Shown: piece after piece, positions 61-37,488 of the stretch
Layout: each line of letters begins with the position of its first letter
Position numbering within the stretch: position 1 is the first letter of the stretch
Virus record (IMG/VR): IMGVR_UViG_3300047300_000184
Coordinates: 1-37,488 of that record
Length of the DNA: 37,488 nt
Strand: one strand, 5' to 3'
From: a virus
Notes under the pieces: model-generated
Seen by the model: only the letters and a program-made list of their open reading frames with translations
Told to the model about the DNA's origin: nothing
The model's database searches: none
Made by a program: the position numbers and the translations under genes

Positions 61-432
61 ATGAAAAAAGCGCCCAAGCAAATCATCAACTACATCAAGA
101 ATCCTGAAACGTGGGATTCGCTGGTTTTTGAGACTCAGATTCGCAACGAAGTCGAGAACTCGACTGGCGCGCTCACGGCAAGCGATGAGCTTTTGGTTGG
201 CGTTCTCATCATCACGATGGAAACCTTGATCGAAGCGCAGAAGGGGATTGATGAGGCCGGTCATTTGCACTACTACAACGCAGGGCCAGCCGCATCACCT
301 TGGTACAAGATAAGAACCGAATCTTTGGACAAAGCCGTGAAAATCCTTGCCGAGCTTGGCCTAGTGGCCCGGGGACGCCCAAAGAAGACATCAGCACCCA
401 CGGAGATAGATGAGCTATTCGCCTCTGCTTGA
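61..432 (+). CDS. terS: Terminase small subunit (P27-like)
   Basis: A 123-residue protein that would recognise phage DNA and recruit the large terminase for packaging. The basis is its position directly before the large subunit, its length, and the C-terminal half (SPWYKIRTESLDKA then a Gly-Arg-Pro-Lys tail), which resembles the P27 small-terminase family. The ATG at 61 follows a GGGGG ribosome binding site. The gene overlaps the large subunit by 23 bp, so the two are probably translationally coupled. An HNH endonuclease gene sits at the far right of the window, which would place it upstream of this gene in a circular map. The family assignment is from recognition of sequence pattern, not from a search. 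Confidence 0.75.
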   Translation: MKKAPKQIINYIKNPETWDSLVFETQIRNEVENSTGALTASDELLVGVLIITMETLIEAQKGIDEAGHLHYYNAGPAASPWYKIRTESLDKAVKILAELGLVARGRPKKTSAPTEIDELFASA

Positions 433-2083
433 ACCCGCCTTTGTTTACGCCACTTCGGTGGTGCGCGGGGACACACTTGCGTGTGAAGACATCAAACTAG
501 CCTGTCAACGATTCCTTGACATGGTAGAGCGCAAAGATGCGCCCTATGAGTTCGCCCCATCAAAAGCCGAACACATCCTGAAATTCGCCAAGTTCTGCCG
601 CCATGTCAAAGGGCCGGACGCTGGGAAGCCCATCGAGCTTGAGGGCTTCCAAGTGCTGTTTCTGGCTGGCGTGTATGGCTTCCGTGACAAGCGCGACCAC
701 TCAAAGCGTTGGGTGACGGACGTTATCCTGTTCGTGCCGCGCAAGTCTGGCAAAACCACGCTGGCGTCCATCATCTCTCTGTATGAGCTTTTGTTTGGCG
801 AGGCTGGGCCAGAGGTGTTCACGCTGGCGACAAACCGAGAGCAGGCGTCGATTTGCTTTGACTCATCCAAGGCCATCATGGAAAGCATGGTCCCCGAGCT
901 TCAAAGCCGGTTTATTCCATACCGCAGCGAATTGAAGAAGGCCGGTGACTCCACATCGACCTACCGCGCGCTGTCCCGCGAGAACCGCAAAACTGGTGAC
1001 GGTAAAAACCCGTCCTGCGCCATGATTGACGAGGCCGCACAAATCATCGAGCGTGGCTCCATCGAGGTGCTGCATTCGGGTATGGGTGCGCGTAAGAATC
1101 CTTTAAGGATGTATCTCACCACCGCCAGCTTCACCAAAGAGACAAAGTTCTATGAGGATTTGAGCCACTTCCGCGCTGTGCTGCGTGGCGCTGCGGAGGA
1201 CACATTCAAGTGGTTTGGCCTGCTGTATAGCGTGGACCCCGGCGACGAGTGGAGCGACCCTGCCATTTGGGGCAAGGCCAATCCTATGCTTGGCATCTCC
1301 GTGACCACCGAGGCAATTCAGCACATGGCGGACGAGGCCAAGAGTAAGCCTGCGACCCTCAACGAGTTTCTGTGCAAGCAGTTAAACATTTACGTCAGCG
1401 CCAACGCTGCATGGGTCGATAGGCGCTATTGGGACGAATCCGTTGCCCCAATGCCGGAAGACAAGCCCGAGGCCACATTCATTGGTTTTGACTTGGCGCA
1501 CAGCCGAGATTTGAATGCTGTGGTGACGTTGCATCGGTATGGCGAAGAAGACCTCTATGCCAAGTTCAAATTCTTCCTGCCAGAAGATTCAATCGACATC
1601 ATTCCGAACCATTACAAGCCTATTTTCAGCCAAGCAGTTGCGTCCGGCATCCTGCATTTGACACCCGGAAACGTCACAGATTTGAACGAAATCGAGTCAT
1701 ATATTCGCATGGAGGCGGAAAAATATGAGGTCAAAGAAATTGGTTATGACCCTTACAACGCTGCTGCTCTTGTTGCCAACCTCTTTTCCTACGGCCTACC
1801 AGTCAAAAAAGTTGGACAAGGAATGGCAGTTCTATCCAACCCGTCGAAAACGGCGGAACAACTCATCCTCAAGCGCGCAATCAAGCATGATGGAAACCCG
1901 TTTGTGGGATGGCAGTTGGGTAACTGTGAGGTCTACACGGACGTAAACGGTAACGTAAAAGTGAGAAAAAATGAGGCCGACCCAAGCGCCAAAGTGGACG
2001 GAATCATTGCAATGATTATGGCTCTGCATTGCCATTTGGACAATGTTTTTGTGTCAGATTCTTATGGACTCCGTTTATTCTGA
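410..2083 (+). CDS. terL: Terminase large subunit (HK97-type ATPase-nuclease)
   Basis: A 557-residue packaging motor. The N-terminal ATPase shows a Walker A loop at residues 110-117 (PRKSGKTT) and a Walker B strand ending in the acidic pair Asp207-Glu208 (CAMIDEAA). The C-terminal RNase H-like nuclease is marked by FIGFDLAHSRD near residue 355, then a GYDPYNA segment and a KVDGI segment that supply further acidic residues. The length is typical of Terminase_1/HK97-like large subunits. It translocates DNA into the prohead through the portal encoded next and cuts it at packaging ends. The ATG at 410 lies inside the end of terS; no better start is visible. Confidence 0.93.
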   Translation: MSYSPLLEPAFVYATSVVRGDTLACEDIKLACQRFLDMVERKDAPYEFAPSKAEHILKFAKFCRHVKGPDAGKPIELEGFQVLFLAGVYGFRDKRDHSKRWVTDVILFVPRKSGKTTLASIISLYELLFGEAGPEVFTLATNREQASICFDSSKAIMESMVPELQSRFIPYRSELKKAGDSTSTYRALSRENRKTGDGKNPSCAMIDEAAQIIERGSIEVLHSGMGARKNPLRMYLTTASFTKETKFYEDLSHFRAVLRGAAEDTFKWFGLLYSVDPGDEWSDPAIWGKANPMLGISVTTEAIQHMADEAKSKPATLNEFLCKQLNIYVSANAAWVDRRYWDESVAPMPEDKPEATFIGFDLAHSRDLNAVVTLHRYGEEDLYAKFKFFLPEDSIDIIPNHYKPIFSQAVASGILHLTPGNVTDLNEIESYIRMEAEKYEVKEIGYDPYNAAALVANLFSYGLPVKKVGQGMAVLSNPSKTAEQLILKRAIKHDGNPFVGWQLGNCEVYTDVNGNVKVRKNEADPSAKVDGIIAMIMALHCHLDNVFVSDSYGLRLF

Positions 2084-20615: not shown

Positions 20616-22721
20616 ATGGCAAACAAAATCATTGTAAAAAAATCGTCGGTGGCGGGCAAAGTTCCCGTTGCTGGCGATTTGGATGTTGGCGAACTTGCGG
20701 TAAACGTCACCGACCAAAAAATTTACTCAAAAAACGCAAGCGGTTCGGTTGTGTTAATGGGGTCTGGTTTAGGTGGCACAGGTGATGTGGTTGGACCATC
20801 ATCTTCAACCGACAATGCAATTGCCAGATTTGACGGAACAACCGGCAAATTGATTCAAAACGGCACAATTACCCAAGATGACAGCGGTAACCTTGCTGGC
20901 ATTTTGTCTGAGCAATATGACGTTACCAATACGCCGCCTACAATTGTTGAAGGTTTAGAGGCGTGGGACAGCGGTAACGGAACGCTTGAAGTTGGTCTAA
21001 AAGGCGGTAACGTATCTTATAAATACGGACAGCAAGAATTTGTAAGAGCATACAACGGTAGCGGCTCTGCAATGACCAAGGGGCAGGTGGTCTATATTGT
21101 TGGCGCACAAGGCAATCGCGTTGATGTGCGTTTAGCTAAAGCCGATGCCGAATCAACTTCTGCGGGAACTATTGGCTTTGTAGTCGAATCAATTGCTAAT
21201 GGCGCAGAAGGTTGGGTTCAAGCGTCTGGTTCGCTTTATAAATTGGACACTTCCGCGCTAACCGCTGGACAAGCGTTGTATCTGTCTGTCGCAACCGCTG
21301 GCGCTTATACAACTACACGACCAACAGCGCCCAACCATACAGTAATTTTAGGTTGGGTTGAGCGTGTTCACGCAACAACAGGCTCAATATATGTAAAAGT
21401 AGACAACGGTTACGAACTTAACGAGTTGCACAACGTGCTTATTACAAGCGCCGCATCTGGCAACACATTAATTTATGATGCCGTTGCTGGCGTTTGGAAA
21501 AATGAAAATTTAACTGCCGGAACTGGTGTGAGCGTAACAAATGGTGCTGGTTCTATTACCATTACCAACACCGCGCCCGACCAAACTGTTGCATTGACAG
21601 GTGCGGGTGCTACAACTATTTCGGGAACATATCCTAACTTTACAATTAGTAGCGTTAATACAACATATTCTCCTGCAACATCAACCGTTGCGGGATTGAT
21701 TGAATTAGCTTCTGATACGCAACAAGCCACCGCCGCAAACGCCGTAACCTCTACCGCAAACAGAACTTACGGCCTGCAAGTAAATGCCGCAGGACAGGGT
21801 GTTATTAATGTTCCGTGGACGGACTCTGGCGGTACCGTTACTAGCGTTACAGGTACAAGCCCCGTGGCGTCAACTGGCGGAACAACACCTGCAATTAGTT
21901 TGGCATCAGGTTATGGTGACACACAAAATCCATACGCAAGCAAAATAGCAAACTATGTTTTAGCCGCGCCTAATGGTTCTGCTGGAGTACCAACATTTCG
22001 CGCAATTGTTGCCGCAGATATTCCTACGCTTAACCAAAACACAACAGGCACAGCCGCAGGACTTTCTGCAACATTAGTAGCAACATCGGGCGGCACAGGA
22101 CAAAGCGCCTATGCCGTTGGTGATTTGCTTTATGCAAACACTACAACTACCCTTGCTAAATTAGCTGATGTAGCAACTGGTAATGCTTTAATTTCAGGCG
22201 GTGTAGGTGTAGCCCCAAGTTGGGGAAAAATTGGTTTGGCAACTCACGTTAGTGGTAACTTGCCAGTAACCAATTTGAATAGCGGAACAAGTGCATCTGC
22301 ATCAACTTTTTGGCGCGGGGATGGCACATGGGCGACTGGAGTTTCGGGACCCACCGGACCAACTGGACTCACCGGACCAACTGGACCCACCGGCTCTCCC
22401 GGACCGACAGGACCCACAGGACCGACCGGACCAACAGGCCCTAGCGGTACAACAACTTTGAAGGCTTGGGTCAACTTTAACGGCAGTACTGCAACCGTCA
22501 GAGCGTCTTTAAATGTTAGTAGCGTTTCTAGATCGAGCGCAACAAACTACGCAATTAACTTTACGTCCTCTTTGGGGGACACTAACTACGCGGCTGTTGC
22601 CACGACAGATTTGAACGTCTCACCAATCACAATGCGTAGTGGTACAACAGCCTCGTCCTGCGCCGTCTCAATGGGAGGTTCAACCGATGCAACCAACTAC
22701 TCCTTTGCTGCTTTCAGGTAA
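20616..22721 (+). CDS. Long tail fibre with collagen-like segment
   Basis: A 701-residue fibre. It starts with the shared attachment module ([13 protein letters not shown], then [15 protein letters not shown]). The long shaft (about residues 50-575) contains beta-rich, Gly/Thr/Ala-rich repeats. Residues 578-610 are eleven uninterrupted Gly-X-Y triplets, mainly Gly-Pro-Thr. The C-terminal tip (from about 614, KAWVNFNG) is homologous to that of the fibre at 17832-18572. Collagen-like stretches in phage fibres form triple helices; here it links shaft to tip. The downstream 2-oxoglutarate oxygenase could hydroxylate this stretch (inference). Confidence 0.82.
22347..22445 (+). repeat. Collagen-like Gly-X-Y coding repeat
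   Basis: Eleven codon triplets encode Gly-X-Y, of which eight are Gly-Pro-Thr, one Gly-Leu-Thr, one Gly-Ser-Pro and one Gly-Pro-Ser. The DNA is a 9-bp tandem repeat with synonymous changes (GGACCAACT, GGACCCACC and similar), so it could expand or contract by slippage. Confidence 0.9.
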
Positions 22722-22725
22722 AAAT

Positions 22726-23142
22726 ATGTCAAACGCAAACGTAATCATCCACACAACAGCTGACGGTAACGTGTGTGTAACCATACCGACAGGAGAGAAA
22801 TCTATTGAGCAGGTTCAGCTATCTGACATACCAAATGGGGTGCAAAGTTTTATTGTTTCAAGAGATGCTTTACCTTTGCAACATAACGACTTCTTTGACG
22901 CATGGGAACAAACAGACGGTGTGATTACTGTTAATTTTTCCAAAGCACAAGAGATAACAAAAGCACGTTTACGTCTAGAACGCGAACCATTGTTGACCGC
23001 ACAAGACGTTGCTTTTCAACGTGCGCTTGAAACTGGCGCAGATACATCTTTGATTGTTGCCGAAAAACAAAGGCTTAGAGACATAACAAACCTTGTTGAT
23101 TCTTGCTTAACACTTGAAGAATTAAAGGCTTTGCATCCATGA
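22726..23142 (+). CDS. Tail fibre assembly chaperone-like protein
   Basis: A 138-residue protein. The C-terminal part (LRLEREPLLTAQDVAFQRAL, then EKQRLRDITN) matches the ending shared by many phage fibre-associated or tail-assembly accessory proteins. The ATG at 22726 lies four bases after the fibre stop; a longer upstream frame overlaps the fibre and is rejected. Its site right after the fibre supports a role in fibre folding or attachment. It overlaps the hydroxylase gene by ATGA. Confidence 0.65.
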   Translation: MSNANVIIHTTADGNVCVTIPTGEKSIEQVQLSDIPNGVQSFIVSRDALPLQHNDFFDAWEQTDGVITVNFSKAQEITKARLRLEREPLLTAQDVAFQRALETGADTSLIVAEKQRLRDITNLVDSCLTLEELKALHP

Positions 23143-23684
23143 CTCATCTTCCTATTTGGTATTTGGGAAAAGTCCCGTCACAAATTTGTGATGCCGCTTG
23201 TTCTGAGCTTGAAATGCTGCCATCTAGAGATGCTTCCATGGGCATTGATGGCGCTGACATAAAACACGACCATCGAGACACAACGGTTCGTTTTGCTGAA
23301 GATGGTTTTTGGTTTGCTGGCATCTTGCTGGAACACGCCATGAAAGCCAACCGAGAGTGCAAATGGGACTATGACATTACGTTCCATGAGTGCCTGCAAT
23401 ATGCTGAATATGGGCCGGAGCAACATTACAAATGGCACACAGACACTTTTGCCTTGTCCGGCGCGCCAACAGATCGCAAAGTCACCGCCGTTTGCCTGAT
23501 GAACGATGTGACCGAGTTTAAAGGCGGTCAATTTCAAATGCGCCTTTACAGCGAATACGATGCCCCATTGGAAAAGGGAACAATCATTGCGTTTCCATCT
23601 ATCCTTGAACATCGCGTGACGCCGGTGATTTCTGGTCTGCGCAAGTCTGCAACCATTTGGCTGAATGGCCCAAGATTCAAATGA
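23139..23684 (+). CDS. 2-oxoglutarate/Fe(II)-dependent hydroxylase (prolyl 4-hydroxylase-like)
   Basis: A 181-residue enzyme of the double-stranded beta-helix oxygenase family. The iron ligands are visible as His100-x-Asp102 (HYKWHTDTF) and His158 (SILEHRVTP), with Arg168 placed to bind 2-oxoglutarate (GLRKSATIWL). These enzymes hydroxylate a substrate using oxygen, converting 2-oxoglutarate to succinate. The gene overlaps by ATGA with the fibre chaperone gene and lies 400 bp after a Gly-Pro-Thr-rich fibre, which makes fibre proline a plausible substrate. Nucleic acid or host substrates remain possible. Confidence 0.85.
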   Translation: MTHLPIWYLGKVPSQICDAACSELEMLPSRDASMGIDGADIKHDHRDTTVRFAEDGFWFAGILLEHAMKANRECKWDYDITFHECLQYAEYGPEQHYKWHTDTFALSGAPTDRKVTAVCLMNDVTEFKGGQFQMRLYSEYDAPLEKGTIIAFPSILEHRVTPVISGLRKSATIWLNGPRFK

Positions 23685-23914
23685 CCACGATTGACGCCAC
23701 GGATGCAAGGCTGGAGAAACACGAAGAGATTTGCGCTCTTCGGTATGAAAACATCCAGCTTCAACTGAAAAATACCAACGACTCGATGGATGCTCAGTTC
23801 CGTGGCAGCAACGCCCGTTTGAAGCGCATGGAAACAATAATGATAGCTTCGGCTGGCTCAATGATTTTGGGCATGGCTGGCGCTGTTTTTGCCCTGATGA
23901 CGCACATAAAGTGA
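23681..23914 (+). CDS. Small coiled-coil membrane protein (XhlA-like layout)
   Basis: A 77-residue protein beginning at ATG 23681, overlapping the hydroxylase stop (ATGA). A helical N-terminal region (LEKHEEICALRYENIQLQLK) precedes one C-terminal membrane segment (IASAGSMILGMAGAVFALM). This soluble-helix plus C-terminal TM layout is typical of XhlA-type lysis accessory proteins. Its location at the head of the lysis cassette agrees. Confidence 0.6.
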   Translation: MTTIDATDARLEKHEEICALRYENIQLQLKNTNDSMDAQFRGSNARLKRMETIMIASAGSMILGMAGAVFALMTHIK

Positions 23915-23915
23915 T

Positions 23916-24647
23916 GTGGACCCATTCAGCCTTCTCATGGCGGCGCAGGCCACGGTTGCTGCAATACGCAGCGGTTGTGAGATGTTGTCTCAGGGCAAAA
24001 CTGAAATTGCAAAAACAAAAGCCTCAATCGAGCAGGCGGTCGGTGACGCAAAAGCTATCTATTCGGAGATTGCAGGGCTTTGGAATTGGATTGCTGGACT
24101 ATTCGGGTCTAAAACGTCAAATAAGCAAGAAAAGCCCGTTGCAAAAATTGCTGAGAAATCGGTATCGAAGAGACAAGTTCAATACAAGCCAAAGCCTGTT
24201 GAGCAACTGACGTATGAAGAATACCAAACTCAAGCCATACACCAGATTTGTGAGCAGCTTAAAACCTTCTTTGAAATTCGCAGGCAACTTCAAGAGTATT
24301 GCCGCGACTTAGAAGAGGAATCCAAGACAACCACGGACATCGAGGGCGCGGCACTAGACAGGATACAAATTGAAATGCAGCTTGAACAAATGACTGTGCA
24401 AATCAGGGAAACCATGATTTATACACCCAAAGAAATTGGGTTGCAAAGCATTTACAGTCGTTTTCTCAAGATGTATGACCAGATTCTCGAAGAGCGAGAG
24501 TTTGACAGGGCGTTGAAACGCAAACAGGAAATAGACGCAAAATGGCAACGAGAATACCGCCAACAAATCAAGGTCGCCAAGTTGGGTTACGCAATAGTGG
24601 TAACGGTAGTCGGCCTGTGGATGATGGCGTTGTTTTCCGTTCTATGA
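23916..24647 (+). CDS. Membrane-anchored helical protein of the lysis region
   Basis: A 243-residue protein starting at GTG 23916, one base after the previous stop. The N-terminus (PFSLLMAAQATVAAIRSG) is helical and weakly hydrophobic, the middle is Lys/Glu/Gln-rich coiled coil, and the C-terminus carries one membrane segment (YAIVVTVVGLWMMALFSVL). No enzymatic motif is seen. It may act in envelope disruption or as a virion-associated membrane protein; I do not recognise a named family. Confidence 0.55.
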   Translation: MDPFSLLMAAQATVAAIRSGCEMLSQGKTEIAKTKASIEQAVGDAKAIYSEIAGLWNWIAGLFGSKTSNKQEKPVAKIAEKSVSKRQVQYKPKPVEQLTYEEYQTQAIHQICEQLKTFFEIRRQLQEYCRDLEEESKTTTDIEGAALDRIQIEMQLEQMTVQIRETMIYTPKEIGLQSIYSRFLKMYDQILEEREFDRALKRKQEIDAKWQREYRQQIKVAKLGYAIVVTVVGLWMMALFSVL

Positions 24648-24829
24648 AAGAATTCTATTGGTGGGTCATCATTGTCACGCTGCTGCTAATGCTGCTTGGA
24701 TTTTCCATTTGGTCAGCACTTTACGCAGACAATCGTGTTCGCAAGGCCGAGGTTATCCTCCAGCGCGCCGAGCAAATTGAAAAGAAGACAAGACAGAAAA
24801 TTGAACCAACTCCCGAGAAGGAAGAATAA
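24644..24829 (+). CDS. Small membrane protein with charged tail (holin- or spanin-like)
   Basis: A 61-residue protein overlapping the previous gene by ATGA and the next gene by one base (TAATG). One N-terminal membrane segment (WWVIIVTLLLMLLGFSIW) is followed by a 35-residue charged helix. This could be a type III holin, an antiholin or an inner-membrane spanin component. A longer frame from 24542 lies inside the previous gene and is less likely. Confidence 0.55.
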   Translation: MKEFYWWVIIVTLLLMLLGFSIWSALYADNRVRKAEVILQRAEQIEKKTRQKIEPTPEKEE

Positions 24830-25329
24830 TGCTGTCTTTAATTTCTACCCTTGGCGGTCTGCTGTTGTCGGCCTTGCCAAAATTCATTGAGCTTTTTCAG
24901 TCAAAGCAGGACCAAAAGCACGAAGCCGAACTAGCTCGGATTCAGACCGAACGCGAACTAGCCCTTGCCGCGCAGGGTTTTGCAGCCCAAGCCAAAATCG
25001 AGGAATTGCGCACCGATCAGGTTTCAATGCAAACCGAAGCCGCCATGACCCAAGCCGCCTATGCCCATGACGCAAAGGTGCTAGAAAAGGCAGCAGGGTG
25101 GGTTTCGACCTACGTTGGGACCGTTAGGCCCACCATAACCTATTTGTTCGTCCTAGAGCTTGTTTTCATCAATGCTGGCCTTGGCTCCTACGTTTGGACT
25201 CATCCACAAATGATTACTGGCGTGGATGACCTTATCAAGATTGGTAACGAGATTTTCAGCGACGATGAGATGGCTATGCTTGGCGGCATTATTGGCTACT
25301 GGTTTGGCTCTCGCGGCTACAAAAAATGA
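24829..25329 (+). CDS. Holin (3-TM family)
   Basis: A 166-residue protein with a short N-terminal hydrophobic helix (LISTLGGLLLSALPKFIELF), a long Ala/Gln/Glu-rich coiled coil (about residues 25-85), and a C-terminal half with two membrane segments. The GTVRPTITYLFVLELVFINAG segment and the final YWFGSRGYKK are hallmarks of the Holin_3TM family. It would permeabilise the inner membrane at lysis. It overlaps the endolysin gene by ATGA, the usual holin-endolysin pairing. Confidence 0.8.
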   Translation: MLSLISTLGGLLLSALPKFIELFQSKQDQKHEAELARIQTERELALAAQGFAAQAKIEELRTDQVSMQTEAAMTQAAYAHDAKVLEKAAGWVSTYVGTVRPTITYLFVLELVFINAGLGSYVWTHPQMITGVDDLIKIGNEIFSDDEMAMLGGIIGYWFGSRGYKK

Positions 25330-33428: not shown

Positions 33429-33790
33429 TTCCAAAGCATGAATACATCCGCAGTCCCAAGCTACTCAAGGCCGCAAGGGAGATTCCCTGCCAATCCTGCG
33501 GCGCTGATAACGGAACCGTGGTGGCTGCGCACACTAATTGGGGTGGTGGCAAGGGCCGGTCGGTCAAGGCCGATGACAACCTGATTGCCTCCCTGTGCTA
33601 CACCTGCCACGCCGAACTGGACCAAGGCAGGCTGTTGAGCAAGGAGCAGCGCAAGCAATTGTGGGTTGTGGCACATTACAAAACCGTGAGAAAATTGGTC
33701 TTGCTTGGGATGTGGCCTAGTGAAGTGCCGGTCCCGTTTGTTCAAGAATACGAGGACATTTGGAATGAAGCGATATACAGCCAGCATTGA
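33425..33790 (+). CDS. DUF1364-like zinc protein, putative nuclease
   Basis: A 121-residue protein starting at GTG 33425. Four Cys and several His form a zinc-finger/HNH-like arrangement: CQSCG near residue 22, VAAHTNWGGGKGRSVKADDN, and CYTCHAELDQGR near 59. This matches the DUF1364 family of lambdoid phages, thought to be HNH-type nucleases. Its place among RusA and NinB genes agrees with a DNA-processing role. The catalytic His is presumably in AAHTN. Confidence 0.78.
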   Translation: MIPKHEYIRSPKLLKAAREIPCQSCGADNGTVVAAHTNWGGGKGRSVKADDNLIASLCYTCHAELDQGRLLSKEQRKQLWVVAHYKTVRKLVLLGMWPSEVPVPFVQEYEDIWNEAIYSQH

Positions 33791-34169
33791 AGCGCAACAC
33801 AAGGGACCAGACCCCGTGATGGATATGGTCATGTGCCTGCTGCATAGCGTCACAAACGCTCACATCCTGCACTTGTCCACCACCAGCTATGCCGCCCATC
33901 AAGCACTCGGAAATTTCTACGAAGAAATGGGCGACCTTGTTGACAGCTTTGTTGAGGCGTTCCAAGGTAAGTATGGCTTGCTCACCGATTACAAGGCTGA
34001 ATACGCCCTGCCGCCCGAGCCAATCGCATACATGACCTACCTCAAGACTGAGGTGGAAAAGCTGCGCCGCGCAACCAATTTCCCGCAGGATTCTGAGTTG
34101 CAGAACGAGGTGGACAACATTGCCAATCTCATCAACTCGACCGAATACAAGCTGCGCTTCCTGAAATAA
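33765..34169 (+). CDS. Ferritin-like/Dps-like small phage protein (DUF5856-like)
   Basis: A 134-residue helical protein starting at ATG 33765 (ATG 33819 is an alternative). The blocks LLHSVTNAHILHLSTTSYAA, FYEEMGDLVDSFVEAFQGKY and a C-terminal helix ending in YKLRFLK resemble DUF5856 proteins of other phages, which look like a four-helix Dps/ferritin fold with conserved His/Glu. DNA or metal binding is possible; not established. Confidence 0.58.
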   Translation: MKRYTASIEAQHKGPDPVMDMVMCLLHSVTNAHILHLSTTSYAAHQALGNFYEEMGDLVDSFVEAFQGKYGLLTDYKAEYALPPEPIAYMTYLKTEVEKLRRATNFPQDSELQNEVDNIANLINSTEYKLRFLK

Positions 34170-34344: not shown

Positions 34345-34412
34345 AAAATCGACTTCAAAATTTTTTTTCAAAAACCCTGAGTGGGGGTCAAACCTACTTT
34401 TTTGGCCCTGTT

Positions 34413-34426
34413 AGTGAGTACTCACT
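34413..34426. repeat. AGTGAGT palindrome
   Basis: AGTGAGTACTCACT is a perfect 14-bp palindrome. Its half-site AGTGAGT recurs in each of the two 18-bp direct repeats downstream, giving four copies in all within 200 bp. Confidence 0.7.
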
Positions 34427-34438
34427 TCGTTTTTTAGT

Positions 34439-34456
34439 AAGTGAGTGCCAACTAAC
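34439..34456 (+). repeat. 18-bp direct repeat, copy 1
   Basis: AAGTGAGTGCCAACTAAC, identical to the copy at 34602-34619. The two flank 145 bp of non-coding DNA. Confidence 0.9.
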
Positions 34457-34601
34457 ATGCCGGCGTTTTTTGATCCCGGACATGCCAAAAATCGGGCCGG
34501 CAAATCGATCAAAATCACGTTTGGCGCAAAATTATTGCCGGTTGATACCCGGGTAAGGGTTTAAACAATTGGCCCCTTAAAACGCGCAAAATTTTGCAGC
34601 G

Positions 34602-34619
34602 AAGTGAGTGCCAACTAAC
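34602..34619 (+). repeat. 18-bp direct repeat, copy 2
   Basis: Identical to 34439-34456. It ends ten bases before the bidirectional terminator and right where GAG/CTC trinucleotides disappear from the sequence. Confidence 0.9.
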
Positions 34620-34628
34620 TAGCCAAAC

Positions 34629-34662
34629 CTAAAAAAACGGGACAAAAGCCCCATTTTTTTAG
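34629..34662. terminator. Bidirectional terminator between convergent operons
   Basis: CTAAAAAAA and TTTTTTTAG pair around an inner GGG/CCC stem and an eight-base loop. The A-tract on one side and T-tract on the other allow termination from both directions, fitting the convergent ends of the early rightward operon and the accessory leftward operon. Confidence 0.75.
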
Positions 34663-34671
34663 ATTTGACGC

Positions 34672-34845
34672 CTAGGGCATGCGATCCAACAAAAGCCAAA
34701 AGTCCGCAAAGTGTGCTTCGGTTTGGTTTTCTTCATTGTCCAACGCATGAAGGCAAAGCCATTGATCGGCATGCCAGATTGTATCGATCACCCATAATCC
34801 CGGCATGCCATTGGTTAGCGCGCCAATATTGCCAATTTCAAGCAT
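34672..34845 (-). CDS. Last gene of accessory operon, unknown (57 aa)
   Basis: A 57-residue acidic protein (MLEIGNIGALTNGMPGLWVI then a Trp/His-containing helix ADQWLCLHALDNEENQ). An AAGGGG ribosome binding site precedes the ATG at 34845, the same type as the other island genes. It overlaps the upstream HTH gene by 8 bp. Too short for automatic callers. Function unknown. Confidence 0.55.
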   Translation of the reverse strand: MLEIGNIGALTNGMPGLWVIDTIWHADQWLCLHALDNEENQTEAHFADFWLLLDRMP

Positions 34846-34978
34846 GTTTTGCCCCTTCTGTTTTTTGCATAAGAATGCGTTTTAAAGTTTGGACCGATTT
34901 GCCGGTGATCTTTGCCAATTGGCAAAGGGTAAGGTTTGGATTGGTGTCGTATAGATCGCAAATTTGTTGATTTGTCAT
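34838..34978 (-). CDS. Small helix-turn-helix protein (46 aa)
   Basis: A 46-residue protein with a helix-turn-helix pattern: ICDLYDTN, then LTLCQLAKITGKSVQTLKRI and a short basic tail. The ATG overlaps the upstream stop by ATGA. It is a candidate regulator of the accessory operon, perhaps acting at the operators near 36580 and 36690 or the AGTGAGT sites (inference). Confidence 0.6.
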   Translation of the reverse strand: MTNQQICDLYDTNPNLTLCQLAKITGKSVQTLKRILMQKTEGAKHA

Positions 34979-35202
34979 GCTGCAACCTTTTGCGTTAATT
35001 TGATAATGTTTTTTGTTGTTGTATCGGGTTTAGATAACCAACGCGCGCGCCATGCCAACAAATCGGCATAAAACCAATCGATCCGGCAATTGTCGATCCT
35101 TCGCAAATCGTTTTTGTGGCATTCTTTTGCATGCCGGATTGTGTGTGCAGATCCGTTATCCTTCATTGATCGCAAATAATCTTTGTATTCTTTTTTATTC
35201 AT
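34975..35202 (-). CDS. Small basic island protein (75 aa)
   Basis: A 75-residue protein (MNKKEYKDYLRSMKDNGSAH) rich in Lys, Arg, His and Trp, mostly helical (CRIDWFYADLLAWRARWLS). The ATG at 35202 has a GGGG-type ribosome binding site; an upstream extension to 35226 overlaps the Gp88-like gene and is rejected. The sequence has no recognised domain; nucleic-acid binding is plausible from its charge. Confidence 0.55.
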   Translation of the reverse strand: MNKKEYKDYLRSMKDNGSAHTIRHAKECHKNDLRRIDNCRIDWFYADLLAWRARWLSKPDTTTKNIIKLTQKVAA

Positions 35203-35212
35203 TTTGGCCCCA

Positions 35213-35866
35213 TTAGTGCAAAGCATAGGAAATTACTTCGTTTGTCCAACAATCCCGGCAATTTTTGCATTCCCCATTTTGCGAAGGGGCCTTGCATGGT
35301 TTGCCAATCGGGTTTTTTGTGTGGACATTGGACGCGGTAACGTTTGCGATCCCTTGCAGCGATAACGGGATTTTTACCGGTTGGTCCGGATACATTGCCG
35401 ACAATCGGACAATCAAATTTGCCGGCAATTTGCCATGCTTTGCAATAAATTGTTTTACAAACGAATATTCCCGGGTTGGCAACCAATGCATTGTGTCCGG
35501 GGTTAATTCTGCAACCTTTGCAATTTTCTCTAAGTGATCGACACTTTGAAGGTCCCCAGAATCGTGCCAACGCATGAAGGGATCTTTGCCAATCAATGAA
35601 ACCATGCCGTCGATCCACAATGGATCGTTTAAAGAATCAAGCCGGGCAAATTGTGCCGGCTTGATTGTCTTTTGATACATTGAATAAAACCCTTTGTTTG
35701 CGTAGCATGAATTGCAAATTGATCCTTCAATTTGTGCCATTTTGTAGCCGGTTTTGCATGCTTCGGTTGGCAAACTATAGGATTTGCAAGGCATTTTTGA
35801 CGTTTGCGTCATTGTGCCGCATATGGATTGTGCTTCGGCCTTTTTTAGGTAGATAATTTTTTGCAT
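35213..35866 (-). CDS. Gp88-like Cys-rich phage protein, unknown enzyme?
   Basis: A 217-residue protein. The N-terminal third has closely placed Cys (residues near 16, 27, 37, and CNSCYANKG near 51-55), followed by FMRWHDSGDLQSVDHLEKIA and HWLPTREYSFVKQF, a combination I associate with the phage Gp88 family, and a C-terminal Cys cluster (PCKAPSQNGECKNCRDCW). The Cys pattern suggests a metal or iron-sulfur cluster, perhaps a radical-SAM-like fold, but no canonical CxxxCxxC motif is seen. A TAAGGGGC ribosome binding site precedes the ATG. Function unknown. Confidence 0.62.
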   Translation of the reverse strand: MQKIIYLKKAEAQSICGTMTQTSKMPCKSYSLPTEACKTGYKMAQIEGSICNSCYANKGFYSMYQKTIKPAQFARLDSLNDPLWIDGMVSLIGKDPFMRWHDSGDLQSVDHLEKIAKVAELTPDTMHWLPTREYSFVKQFIAKHGKLPANLIVRLSAMYPDQPVKIPLSLQGIANVTASNVHTKNPIGKPCKAPSQNGECKNCRDCWTNEVISYALH

Positions 35867-35875
35867 GTTTGCCCC

Positions 35876-36436
35876 TTATACGTTTTTAGTTTGTGCCAAT
35901 TGTTTAGAAGTCATGCGATATTGCATGGCATGGCCTTCTAGCGTTACAAACCAACCCCGGCGCGCGCCGGCTTTGCTTTGCAGAATGTAAACATAATCGC
36001 CTAGTTCAACGCGCATGCCTTTTGTATATGCGCGCCTAGGTTTTTTTGCGTTTGCCCGGCAATTGGCGCGCCATTGGATCGCGGACTTTGTGCCGAAGTC
36101 ATGCGCGTTTGGATCTAATGGGGCCAATTTGTCCAACAAATCGACAATCCGGATCGGCGCGTTTGCAGCATATGGACCGCAAAATTCGTCCATATCTTTA
36201 TGCCCAAACTGGCCATTTTTTAGGGTAAACAACACAATTGCACCGAAGTGCCGTTTGTACCCGTCCGGGTTTGTGGTTTCAATTACCGCATACCAAACCC
36301 GGCCTTTTGTCGATTGATCAACAACGCGCCATTGTGTTTGCAAAGTCCCGTCCGGCCTTTGCATTGGTTGCGTATATTCCCGGGTAAGAATTTCACCGGG
36401 TTTTTGTCCGTTTGCGTCAAAAAATGTCCAACCCAT
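35876..36436 (-). CDS. DUF6927-like protein
   Basis: A 186-residue protein starting MGWTFFDANGQKPGEI, with KDMDEFCGPYAANAP in the middle and a basic C-terminal half. The MGWTFFD start, the RRVV/RVVDQS strand region and the KDMDE...GPY motif match a plasmid- and phage-borne family listed as DUF6927. The C-terminal extension (about residues 130-186) contains a strand-rich, SH3-like or cold-shock-like segment (RVELGDYVYILQSKAGARRG). Function unknown. A TAAGGGGC ribosome binding site precedes the ATG. Confidence 0.6.
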   Translation of the reverse strand: MGWTFFDANGQKPGEILTREYTQPMQRPDGTLQTQWRVVDQSTKGRVWYAVIETTNPDGYKRHFGAIVLFTLKNGQFGHKDMDEFCGPYAANAPIRIVDLLDKLAPLDPNAHDFGTKSAIQWRANCRANAKKPRRAYTKGMRVELGDYVYILQSKAGARRGWFVTLEGHAMQYRMTSKQLAQTKNV

Positions 36437-36446
36437 GATATGCCCC

Positions 36447-36527
36447 TTACGCCGTTAACCAAACGATCAAAAAAGACACAAACAACAACGCATAAAGAAT
36501 GCGATCAAAAAAAGCATGTTTTTGCAT
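36447..36527 (-). CDS. Micro-protein with one membrane segment (26 aa), first gene of accessory operon
   Basis: A 26-residue frame (MQKHAFFDRILYALLFVSFL then IVWLTA), nearly all one membrane helix, with TAAGGG seven bases before the ATG. A longer frame from 36635 crosses the promoter region and is unlikely. As the promoter-proximal gene it should be made in the highest amount. Confidence 0.55.
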   Translation of the reverse strand: MQKHAFFDRILYALLFVSFLIVWLTA

Positions 36528-36577
36528 GATATAACCCTTACGATTGATTGTGGATAACCCCATTTTTAGGGGCATGC

Positions 36578-36590
36578 GTCCAATATGGAC
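36578..36590. promoter_or_regulatory. Operator-like inverted repeat 1
   Basis: GTCCAATATGGAC, a 5-bp perfect inverted repeat with core CCAATATGG. The same core recurs at 36685-36697, on the other side of the promoter. It lies 51 bp upstream of the leftward operon's first ATG. Confidence 0.5.
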
Positions 36591-36636
36591 ACAATTTGTA
36601 GGCGCAAACATTGTGCCAACGCAAAACAATGCCAAT

Positions 36637-36666
36637 TTGAAAACCTAGGGTTTAGTTTAGTATACT
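36637..36666 (+). promoter_or_regulatory. Rightward promoter toward the HNH and terminase genes
   Basis: TTGAAA (36637-36642), 18-bp spacer, TATACT (36661-36666). The spacer contains the palindrome AAACC-TAG-GGTTT. AGTATACT is itself palindromic, so the same -10 could serve a leftward promoter, although no good leftward -35 is seen. Confidence 0.6.
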
Positions 36667-36684
36667 AGGGCAAAAGTATCAATG

Positions 36685-36697
36685 CACCAATATGGTG
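36685..36697. promoter_or_regulatory. Operator-like inverted repeat 2
   Basis: CACCAATATGGTG, perfect 5-bp arms around ATA, sharing the CCAATATGG core with 36578-36590. It sits just downstream of the rightward promoter, a repression position. Confidence 0.5.
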
Positions 36698-36708
36698 TTG
36701 AGTGATCT

Positions 36709-36740
36709 AAACCGGTGCAAAGTAACACCAAACCGGTGCA
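36709..36740 (+). repeat. Two AAACCGGTGCA direct repeats 21 bp apart
   Basis: AAACCGGTGCA at 36709-36719 and 36730-36740 are identical and spaced two helical turns, in the leader of the HNH transcript. They look like a second regulator-binding site. Confidence 0.5.
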
Positions 36741-36787
36741 TGGTGTGGATTGTGTGCATAAGTCCGGGCATTGTGGATAATTACCTT

Positions 36788-37207
36788 ATGCCAACCATGC
36801 CAACAAACACAAAGTGTGAAACCCTAGGCTGCAAAGCCCCTAGATCGGGCAAAAGTGTCTTTTGTGACATGCATGCCGGCAAACAACAAACCACACAAAC
36901 CCGGGATCAATTCAATGCCATGTACAAAACAAAGGCATGGCATTCCATAAAGGCCCGGCAATTGTCCATTGCCCCATTGTGTGGATCTTGCATGTTAGAA
37001 GGCCGGATTGTGCCGGCAAACCATGTCGATCACGTTTTCCCATGGCATGCCATTGGATCGCATGCGTTTGCGAAAAATTGGTTTCAATCCCTTTGCCCGG
37101 CATGTCATTCCCGCAAAACGGCAAAAGAACAGAAGGGGATTTTTCAACACTTCACACAATCGGGCATTGTTGAATATTCGTTTGCCGATTATGCGCGCGT
37201 GAAATAG
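36788..37207 (+). CDS. HNH endonuclease (terminase-associated type)
   Basis: A 139-residue protein starting at ATG 36788 (a longer frame from 36692 crosses the operator repeats and is rejected). An N-terminal zinc-binding part (CETLGCKAP and CDMHAGK) precedes the HNH domain: LCGSCMLEG, NHVDHVFPWHA with the HxxH-type core, and SLCPACHSRKTAKE. HNH proteins next to terminase genes are part of the packaging machinery in HK97-like phages. On a circular map it lies 341 bp upstream of terS. Its DNA has island composition. Confidence 0.85.
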   Translation: MPTMPTNTKCETLGCKAPRSGKSVFCDMHAGKQQTTQTRDQFNAMYKTKAWHSIKARQLSIAPLCGSCMLEGRIVPANHVDHVFPWHAIGSHAFAKNWFQSLCPACHSRKTAKEQKGIFQHFTQSGIVEYSFADYARVK

Positions 37208-37488
37208 ATCAAAGGCCCCTTTGCCCGGGTTGGCGCGCATGCATGGCGCGCAAAACATGCCAATTGCACCAATAATTGCATACTTTATAACCAATAACGG
37301 CAAAACAACACAATTGCCGGCAATTGATTTGATACTTCGGTGCATGTAATGCGTTGTGGCCATTTTGCGCGCGCGCCAATAATTAATTAGTTGGTGTTAC
37401 ATAATCGACGCAAAAACGTCAAAATCGGCAAAATTTCCCTTCATTAGAAACTAAAATGTCACAGATCGCCACGGGAGCAGGCGCGGGG
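37208..37488. other. 281-bp non-coding end, candidate cos/packaging region
   Basis: No ORF. It contains an imperfect GGCGCGC/GCGCGC inverted repeat around GCATGCATG (about 37229-37251), a perfect 16-bp palindrome (37311-37326), a GCGCGCGCC run and a very GC-rich last 20 bases. Joined to 1-60 it gives the gap between the HNH and terS genes, where cos sites lie in related phages. Confidence 0.45.
37311..37326. repeat. 16-bp perfect palindrome
   Basis: CAATTGCCGGCAATTG reads the same on both strands. Its core GCCGGC recurs elsewhere in the island. It may be a binding site of the packaging or HNH proteins, or merely reflect the palindrome-rich composition. Confidence 0.75.

Follow-up and report, generated by a model that had tools for sequence, protein, structure and literature searches.

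The window analysed here, a stretch of 37,488 nucleotides, is one phage genome record of IMG/VR, classed as linear, in which the terminase and portal genes begin at the left end; the closest cultured phage by its large terminase subunit (TerL) is Methylophilaceae phage P19250A (62%). At the opposite end lies a terminal cassette (34457..37447) forming an island with a vocabulary of short DNA words that the rest of the genome does not share. Three of its genes are on the minus strand: an open reading frame of 83 amino acids without assigned family (34975..35226), with a homolog in L036 at 39% identity; a Gp88-family gene of 217 amino acids (35213..35866; PF17338, E 3e-21), with 46 viral relatives and no match across 84,980 prokaryote genomes; and a gene of 186 amino acids containing DUF6927 (35876..36436; PF21992, E 4e-7). 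The non-coding gap upstream of these leftward genes (36437..36691) carries the island vocabulary and is a plausible location for their promoter. On the plus strand follows an HNH endonuclease gene, the last one before the terminase (36692..37207; PF01844, E 2e-8; PHROG 144), whose true start may be 36788, as most homologs begin near residue 33. A non-coding tail (37208..37447), also in the island vocabulary, completes the cassette, in which no known anti-defence gene was recognised.

Both ends of the cassette are well delimited. To the left, its neighbour in the conserved backbone is a DUF5856 gene (33765..34169, plus strand), and the exchange boundary falls at 34387..34456: backbone homology to the relative G003 extends to about 34387 and is lost immediately beyond a conserved stretch like AAAACCTAGGGTGGGGGGTC, and the vocabulary starts within 70 b of that point, between about 34430 and 34457. 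This edge is marked by two plus-strand copies of a 23-nt repeat, AAGTGAGTGCCAACTAAC..., at 34439-34461 and 34602-34624, the second of which contains a GAG at 34606, and by inverted arms at 34410-34429 and 34600-34619; together, the direct and inverted repeats of 34410-34624 are possibly a recombination or regulatory site. To the right, the record finishes in a cos-like motif, GGGAGCAGGCGCGGGG (37473..37488, plus strand), whose core recurs close to this junction in five relatives and which we regard as a putative cos site; on its far side are the plus-strand genes for the small (61-432) and large (410-2083) terminase subunits (61..2083). No end repeats were detected in the record, which could be incomplete; the motif at its end is more in keeping with a cos site. 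TerL starts 340-480 b from the contig start in 32 of 83 cases (positions tabulated by hand from the TerL search), as a physical end would give. An assembly chimera is unlikely, because independent contigs show the same layout, including G033, which reads from the island through the small subunit to TerL.

The vocabulary was quantified over 34621-37470, with expected counts derived from the remainder of the window. GAG/CTC occurs there twice against 61 expected, and the three longest stretches of the window without GAG all fall in the island, which bears out the near-absence that an earlier sequence-only reading had reported by eye. The strongest item, overlooked by that reading, is GATG/CATC, with no occurrence against 33.5 expected; CTGA/TCAG (0 versus 21), CAGG/CCTG (0 versus 18) and CAG/CTG (13 versus 88) follow. 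The excess of palindromes also claimed holds for CATG (40 versus 11.6) and GATC (29 versus 2.5); as to the two others described as frequent, CCGG is indeed so (33 versus 4.9) but GCGC is just mildly above the rest of the window (27 versus 18.7). All four are enriched even beyond the expectation from the island's own trinucleotides. GAG, CATC, CCGC, CAAG and CAG are all depleted, the most depleted words being asymmetric, and the observed/expected ratio of the AG/CT dinucleotide is 0.40 in the island versus 0.86. CATC remains at 0 versus 33 when the expectation is built from the island's own trinucleotides, and the island contains 879 distinct double-stranded 6-mers, while equal-sized windows of the same genome have a mean of 1360 and a minimum of 1261 and dinucleotide-matched simulations give 1223 (standard deviation 27); the vocabulary is therefore more than chance. 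Its structure sits at word lengths of 3-5, with none left at 6. It is strand-symmetric and present in both coding and non-coding DNA, the non-coding parts of the island scoring +0.08 to +0.11 bit/base and the rest, in 300-b windows, at most -0.02; it is thus not a codon effect, as had been argued. The edges are as abrupt as had been described, although displaced to about 34430-34457, some 165 b to the left of the start first proposed, and to about 37447. Slippage or duplication was rejected since no structure is found at word length 6 and the reading frames are conserved, and an RNA-level cause, such as mRNA interferase sites, was rejected since depletion is equal on both strands. A purine parity rule for 4-mers, prompted by the pair CATC/CATG, failed across islands; the same analysis revealed the strong/weak (S/W) clustering described below.

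The island is not an oddity of a single record. Eight of the ten relatives with a TerL 83-94% identical carry in that position a similar block, 3-4 kb long, whose 4-mer divergence is 0.25-0.54 bit in 2-kb windows, compared with mostly 0.05-0.15 elsewhere; a finer divergence scan took in all ten, and where divergence is otherwise raised in these genomes, it is mainly around the tail genes, at about 19-21 kb. The close relatives are all metagenomic contigs, and their island edges were placed by eye on the divergence profile. The words differ by lineage: CATGC and GCAAA in this window, ATTCG and CCTCG in G002/G005, GCCGC and CGCGC in G004/G006, and CTGCC and CCTAG in G012/G013. The palindrome excess is a trait of the island of this window, CCGG and other classical type II words being avoided in many sister islands. 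The G+C of most islands is near that of the backbone. At a greater TerL distance, G023 bears a strong island just upstream of TerL, with Gp88 and DUF6927, and no terminal island is present in HK97, Marinobacter AS1 or P19250A. In P19250A (L148), a large gene annotated as tape measure, at about 21400-25000, combines a raised 4-mer divergence (0.44) with a low number of distinct 6-mers; this vocabulary oddity lies within one gene and away from the genome end.

Comparisons between relatives show that the cassettes are swapped whole between phages, vocabulary included. Over 18 kb of late genes, G004 and G005 reach 92.4% identity, yet only 94 b of island are common to both, while G004 and G006 are 73.8% identical in the late genes and 86.2% across 2.1 kb of island. 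The words of the HNH gene track those of its own island (r 0.73) and less those of its orthologs (r 0.37). From the exchange comparisons and this correlation, the vocabulary is a property of the whole block.

The cassette of this window probably arrived recently. The backbone (window 1-34387) almost wholly avoids 46 words of 5-6 bp, for example CCAGG/CCTGG (0 of 58 expected), CACTG/CAGTG (0 of 49), GATCC (0 of 47) and AAGCTT (0 of 18), and these missing words are a record of past restriction pressure. A test for the same type II avoidance in the island was negative, the words avoided by the genome being found there 55 times against 51.7 expected. The corresponding ratio is 0.00-0.09 in the islands of G002, G003, G005, G006, G033 and L092, resting on five words each for G033 and L092, and the avoidance is less marked in those of G004, G012 and G014 (0.21-0.23) and G013 (0.50). 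The G023 island behaves like the present one, with 75 observed versus 78.4 expected of the words that its own genome avoids. Since backbone-avoided words are at expectation in these two islands, their restriction history is not that of their genomes. Import of the whole block, one of the causes that the sequence-only reading had proposed, is thus well supported, by the swapping of islands between near-identical genomes and by the absence of any share in the genome's restriction-site avoidance; a search of the island DNA against phage and plasmid sequences, suggested as a route to GAG-poor donors, returned no match. Another proposal of that reading, selection against one short asymmetric motif as recognised by bacteriophage exclusion (BREX) or type III/ISP restriction, found no support in that form, because several words are depleted here, the islands of relatives deplete other words and CGAG is enriched in one lineage. 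Neither would avoidance of 6-7 bp sites account for the near-total loss of a 3-mer, as few GAGs would fall in such sites; ordinary restriction avoidance or a single GAG motif does not explain the vocabulary. The remaining proposal, mutation bias of a donor, is unlikely on its own, since resident cassettes keep their vocabulary while the rest of the same genome lacks it. In G023 (L154 and L155), the backbone has two CCGG and two CGCG (35 and 50 expected), and the island, at about 20700-23900 of the joined sequence, has 22 of each.

Once in place, the vocabulary is kept. In pairs of same-lineage cassettes that differ at 12-23% of sites, the second member retains nearly the full vocabulary score, in a cross-fitted test in which the first cassette's other half served to learn the vocabulary. 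When the same substitutions are placed at random sites, or the alleles are shuffled among the variable sites, much of the score is lost (z 4.6-8.9; these z values are approximate, sites being treated as independent). The more diverged pair G012/G013 agrees less strongly (z 2.0-5.1), and backbone controls, scored with a somewhat different model, give z 1.7-2.9. Cassette lineages thus keep their own strand-symmetric vocabulary of 3-5 bp words through substantial divergence.

Beneath the lineage-specific words there is a common component. The S/W lag-1 autocorrelation is raised in 15 of 16 cassettes (0.16-0.32, with backbones at -0.07 to +0.02), and depletion affects AC in every one of the 16, AG and CA in 15 of them. 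The first-step-transfer DNA of T5 (L149; 1-10219) shows the same clustering, 0.17 versus 0.00 with a drop at 10.2 kb, where AG (0.73-0.89 versus about 1.1) also has its edge, and its non-coding part clusters too (0.15). The Klebsiella phage IME260 has the same S/W clustering across its terminal repeat, and Vibrio AG74 weakly so. This comparison was made after the pattern had been seen and covers few phages; it suggests, by analogy, that a vocabulary partly common to T5 first-entering DNA reflects a special sequence-level pressure on leading phage DNA. In both-strand counts, T5 first-step DNA and the rest of that genome also differ in AGAG/CTCT (1.9 versus 7.6 per kb) and GCGC (110 versus 20).

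Taken jointly, the location between a conserved boundary and a cos-like end, the exchange as a whole, the kept vocabulary and the probable recent arrival in this genome can be held with good confidence. In lambda-type order the terminase end is packaged first and the opposite end is ejected first. By gene order, by this rule and by the parallel with T5, it is rather probable that the cassette end enters the cell first. The reading that we favour, tentatively, is that of a terminal, exchangeable, probably early and first-entering cassette, with selection at the DNA level holding its words. After entry the segment would be alone in the cell, and selection on its double-stranded words would then maintain the vocabulary, which would most likely spare the cassette from a DNA-acting early function that it encodes itself. 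This is the situation offered by the T5 pre-early takeover, where the pre-early genes occupy the first 8-9% of the genome and provide a function on which host DNA degradation and entry of the remainder depend, A1 being required for that degradation (PMC13250531). That a cassette-borne function is the particular selective agent is possible at best, although it is somewhat likelier than a host defence because the vocabulary follows the cassette on near-identical, similarly restriction-avoiding backbones. Several observations weigh against the favoured reading. HNH was the only nuclease recognised in the cassette, and tblastn at E 0.01 found no homolog of the T5 pre-early dmp, A1 and A2. G015 and G016 have the HNH gene and no island, and the G014 island does not have the shared S/W component. 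HNH identity predicts vocabulary poorly (rho 0.32), and avoidance of one enzyme's sites would not alone create strongly enriched words. T7 early DNA and the SPO1 terminal repeat have no S/W bias, so first entry alone is not the cause.

Selection could instead be imposed by the host, if restriction, CRISPR acting through its protospacer-adjacent motif (PAM) or other DNA defences purged short target words from the DNA that enters first. In T5-like phages, the pre-early region is reported to be the main target of DNA-targeting defences (PMC13250531); there are also reports of PAM depletion in phage genomes (PMC4246573, PMC12174588), PAMs are short enough for depletion of 3-4 bp words, and the type II words that the backbone avoids are avoided in most islands as well. 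We nevertheless consider this origin unlikely, for near-identical backbones with the same restriction avoidance bear different vocabularies, islands are not clearly poorer than backbones in type II sites, and the two islands at expectation, here and in G023, do not avoid what their own genomes avoid. A mutation or repair bias limited to the genome end and differing by cassette would require no selection, and the strand symmetry, the presence in non-coding DNA and the 3-5 bp word length are what context-dependent mutation would give. It appears rather improbable, because such a bias would have to stop within about 100 b of a defined boundary, differ between cassettes on the same backbone and be very strong to leave CATC/GATG totally absent (0 of 33); moreover, we know of no local mutator.

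The restriction-naive state of the island and its exchange as a block would also be met by plain import, in which the vocabulary is no more than the signature of a foreign donor's genome, without any special function; G016, GAG-poor genome-wide, shows that such signatures exist. Against this stand the G+C near that of the backbone in most islands, the extreme vocabularies kept by resident islands with the same restriction avoidance as their backbone, and the component that most islands have in common with T5 first-step DNA, which together make plain import quite improbable. The counts of G016 itself (L146 and L147) are 6.2 GAG/CTC per kb over the genome (observed/expected 0.38), with GGCC at 0 (130 expected), AGCT at 0 (106 expected), and GTAC, CCGG and ACGT also at 0. 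Packaging provides a very improbable last candidate, namely that words nicked by a terminase-associated HNH protein are purged from the part packaged last. The HNH gene does lie between island and terminase as in HK97, where HNH works with the terminase at cos (PMC10448857), and the HNH proteins are strongly diverged between cassettes. The weak relation of HNH identity to vocabulary noted above speaks otherwise; this window and G033 have the same vocabulary at 41% HNH identity; the G023 island is without this HNH, and HK97 and AS1, like G015 and G016, have an HNH at the same place with no island. HNH specificity is disfavoured as the cause of the vocabulary.

The favoured reading, a first-entering cassette with selected words, has partial counterparts in known systems. 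Like the cassette, the T5 first-step-transfer DNA is a terminal block that makes up about 8% of its genome and contains small leftward genes as well as one for HNH, with AG/CT, AC, CA and GA steps depleted and strong-strong and weak-weak steps enriched, and with a sharp edge at the block boundary; this compositional shift at the boundary, present in both, is a feature found in this work and not a published one. T5 differs in its long terminal repeat and in dmp, A1 and A2, which were not detected here, in a far weaker vocabulary, and in a two-step entry that was defined experimentally, whereas the entry order proposed here draws on gene order and analogy. In HK97 the HNH gene is also the last before the cos site, inferred here, and the small terminase subunit; a cooperation with terminase at cos is putative in this phage, and that end of HK97 has no vocabulary island. 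The region upstream of the terminase is described as a hot spot for nuclease genes, and nuclease genes occur at exchange boundaries (PMC10448857). Whole-block exchange between defined boundaries, as between G004 and G005, is that of the modular mosaicism of tailed phages, with the difference that the module here bears its own maintained short-word vocabulary, for which the papers searched gave no precedent. The leading region of conjugative plasmids also enters first and encodes functions that act early against the defences of the host (PMC11541004); this is an analogy only, given the gene content of the cassette. Restriction-site and PAM avoidance in phages similarly depletes short words on both strands, but here it would concern only 3 kb, with many words, enriched words and a smaller overall vocabulary, and with vocabularies that vary between cassettes on near-identical backbones.

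In the open-access papers searched, which are only part of the literature, no report of a maintained word signature in leading phage DNA was found. It is a speculative proposal that a restricted, selected vocabulary characterises the leading DNA of several unrelated phage groups and would let that DNA survive alone beside an early function that attacks DNA, and it is equally conjectural that the cassette-specific code would act as a self/non-self mark and as a signature of staged entry. If a word signature is indeed maintained in leading DNA, the sequence of uncultured phages could reveal their entry order and whether entry is staged, host-takeover cassettes could be found without homology, and the difference between T5 first-step DNA and the remainder of its genome would become a testable question.

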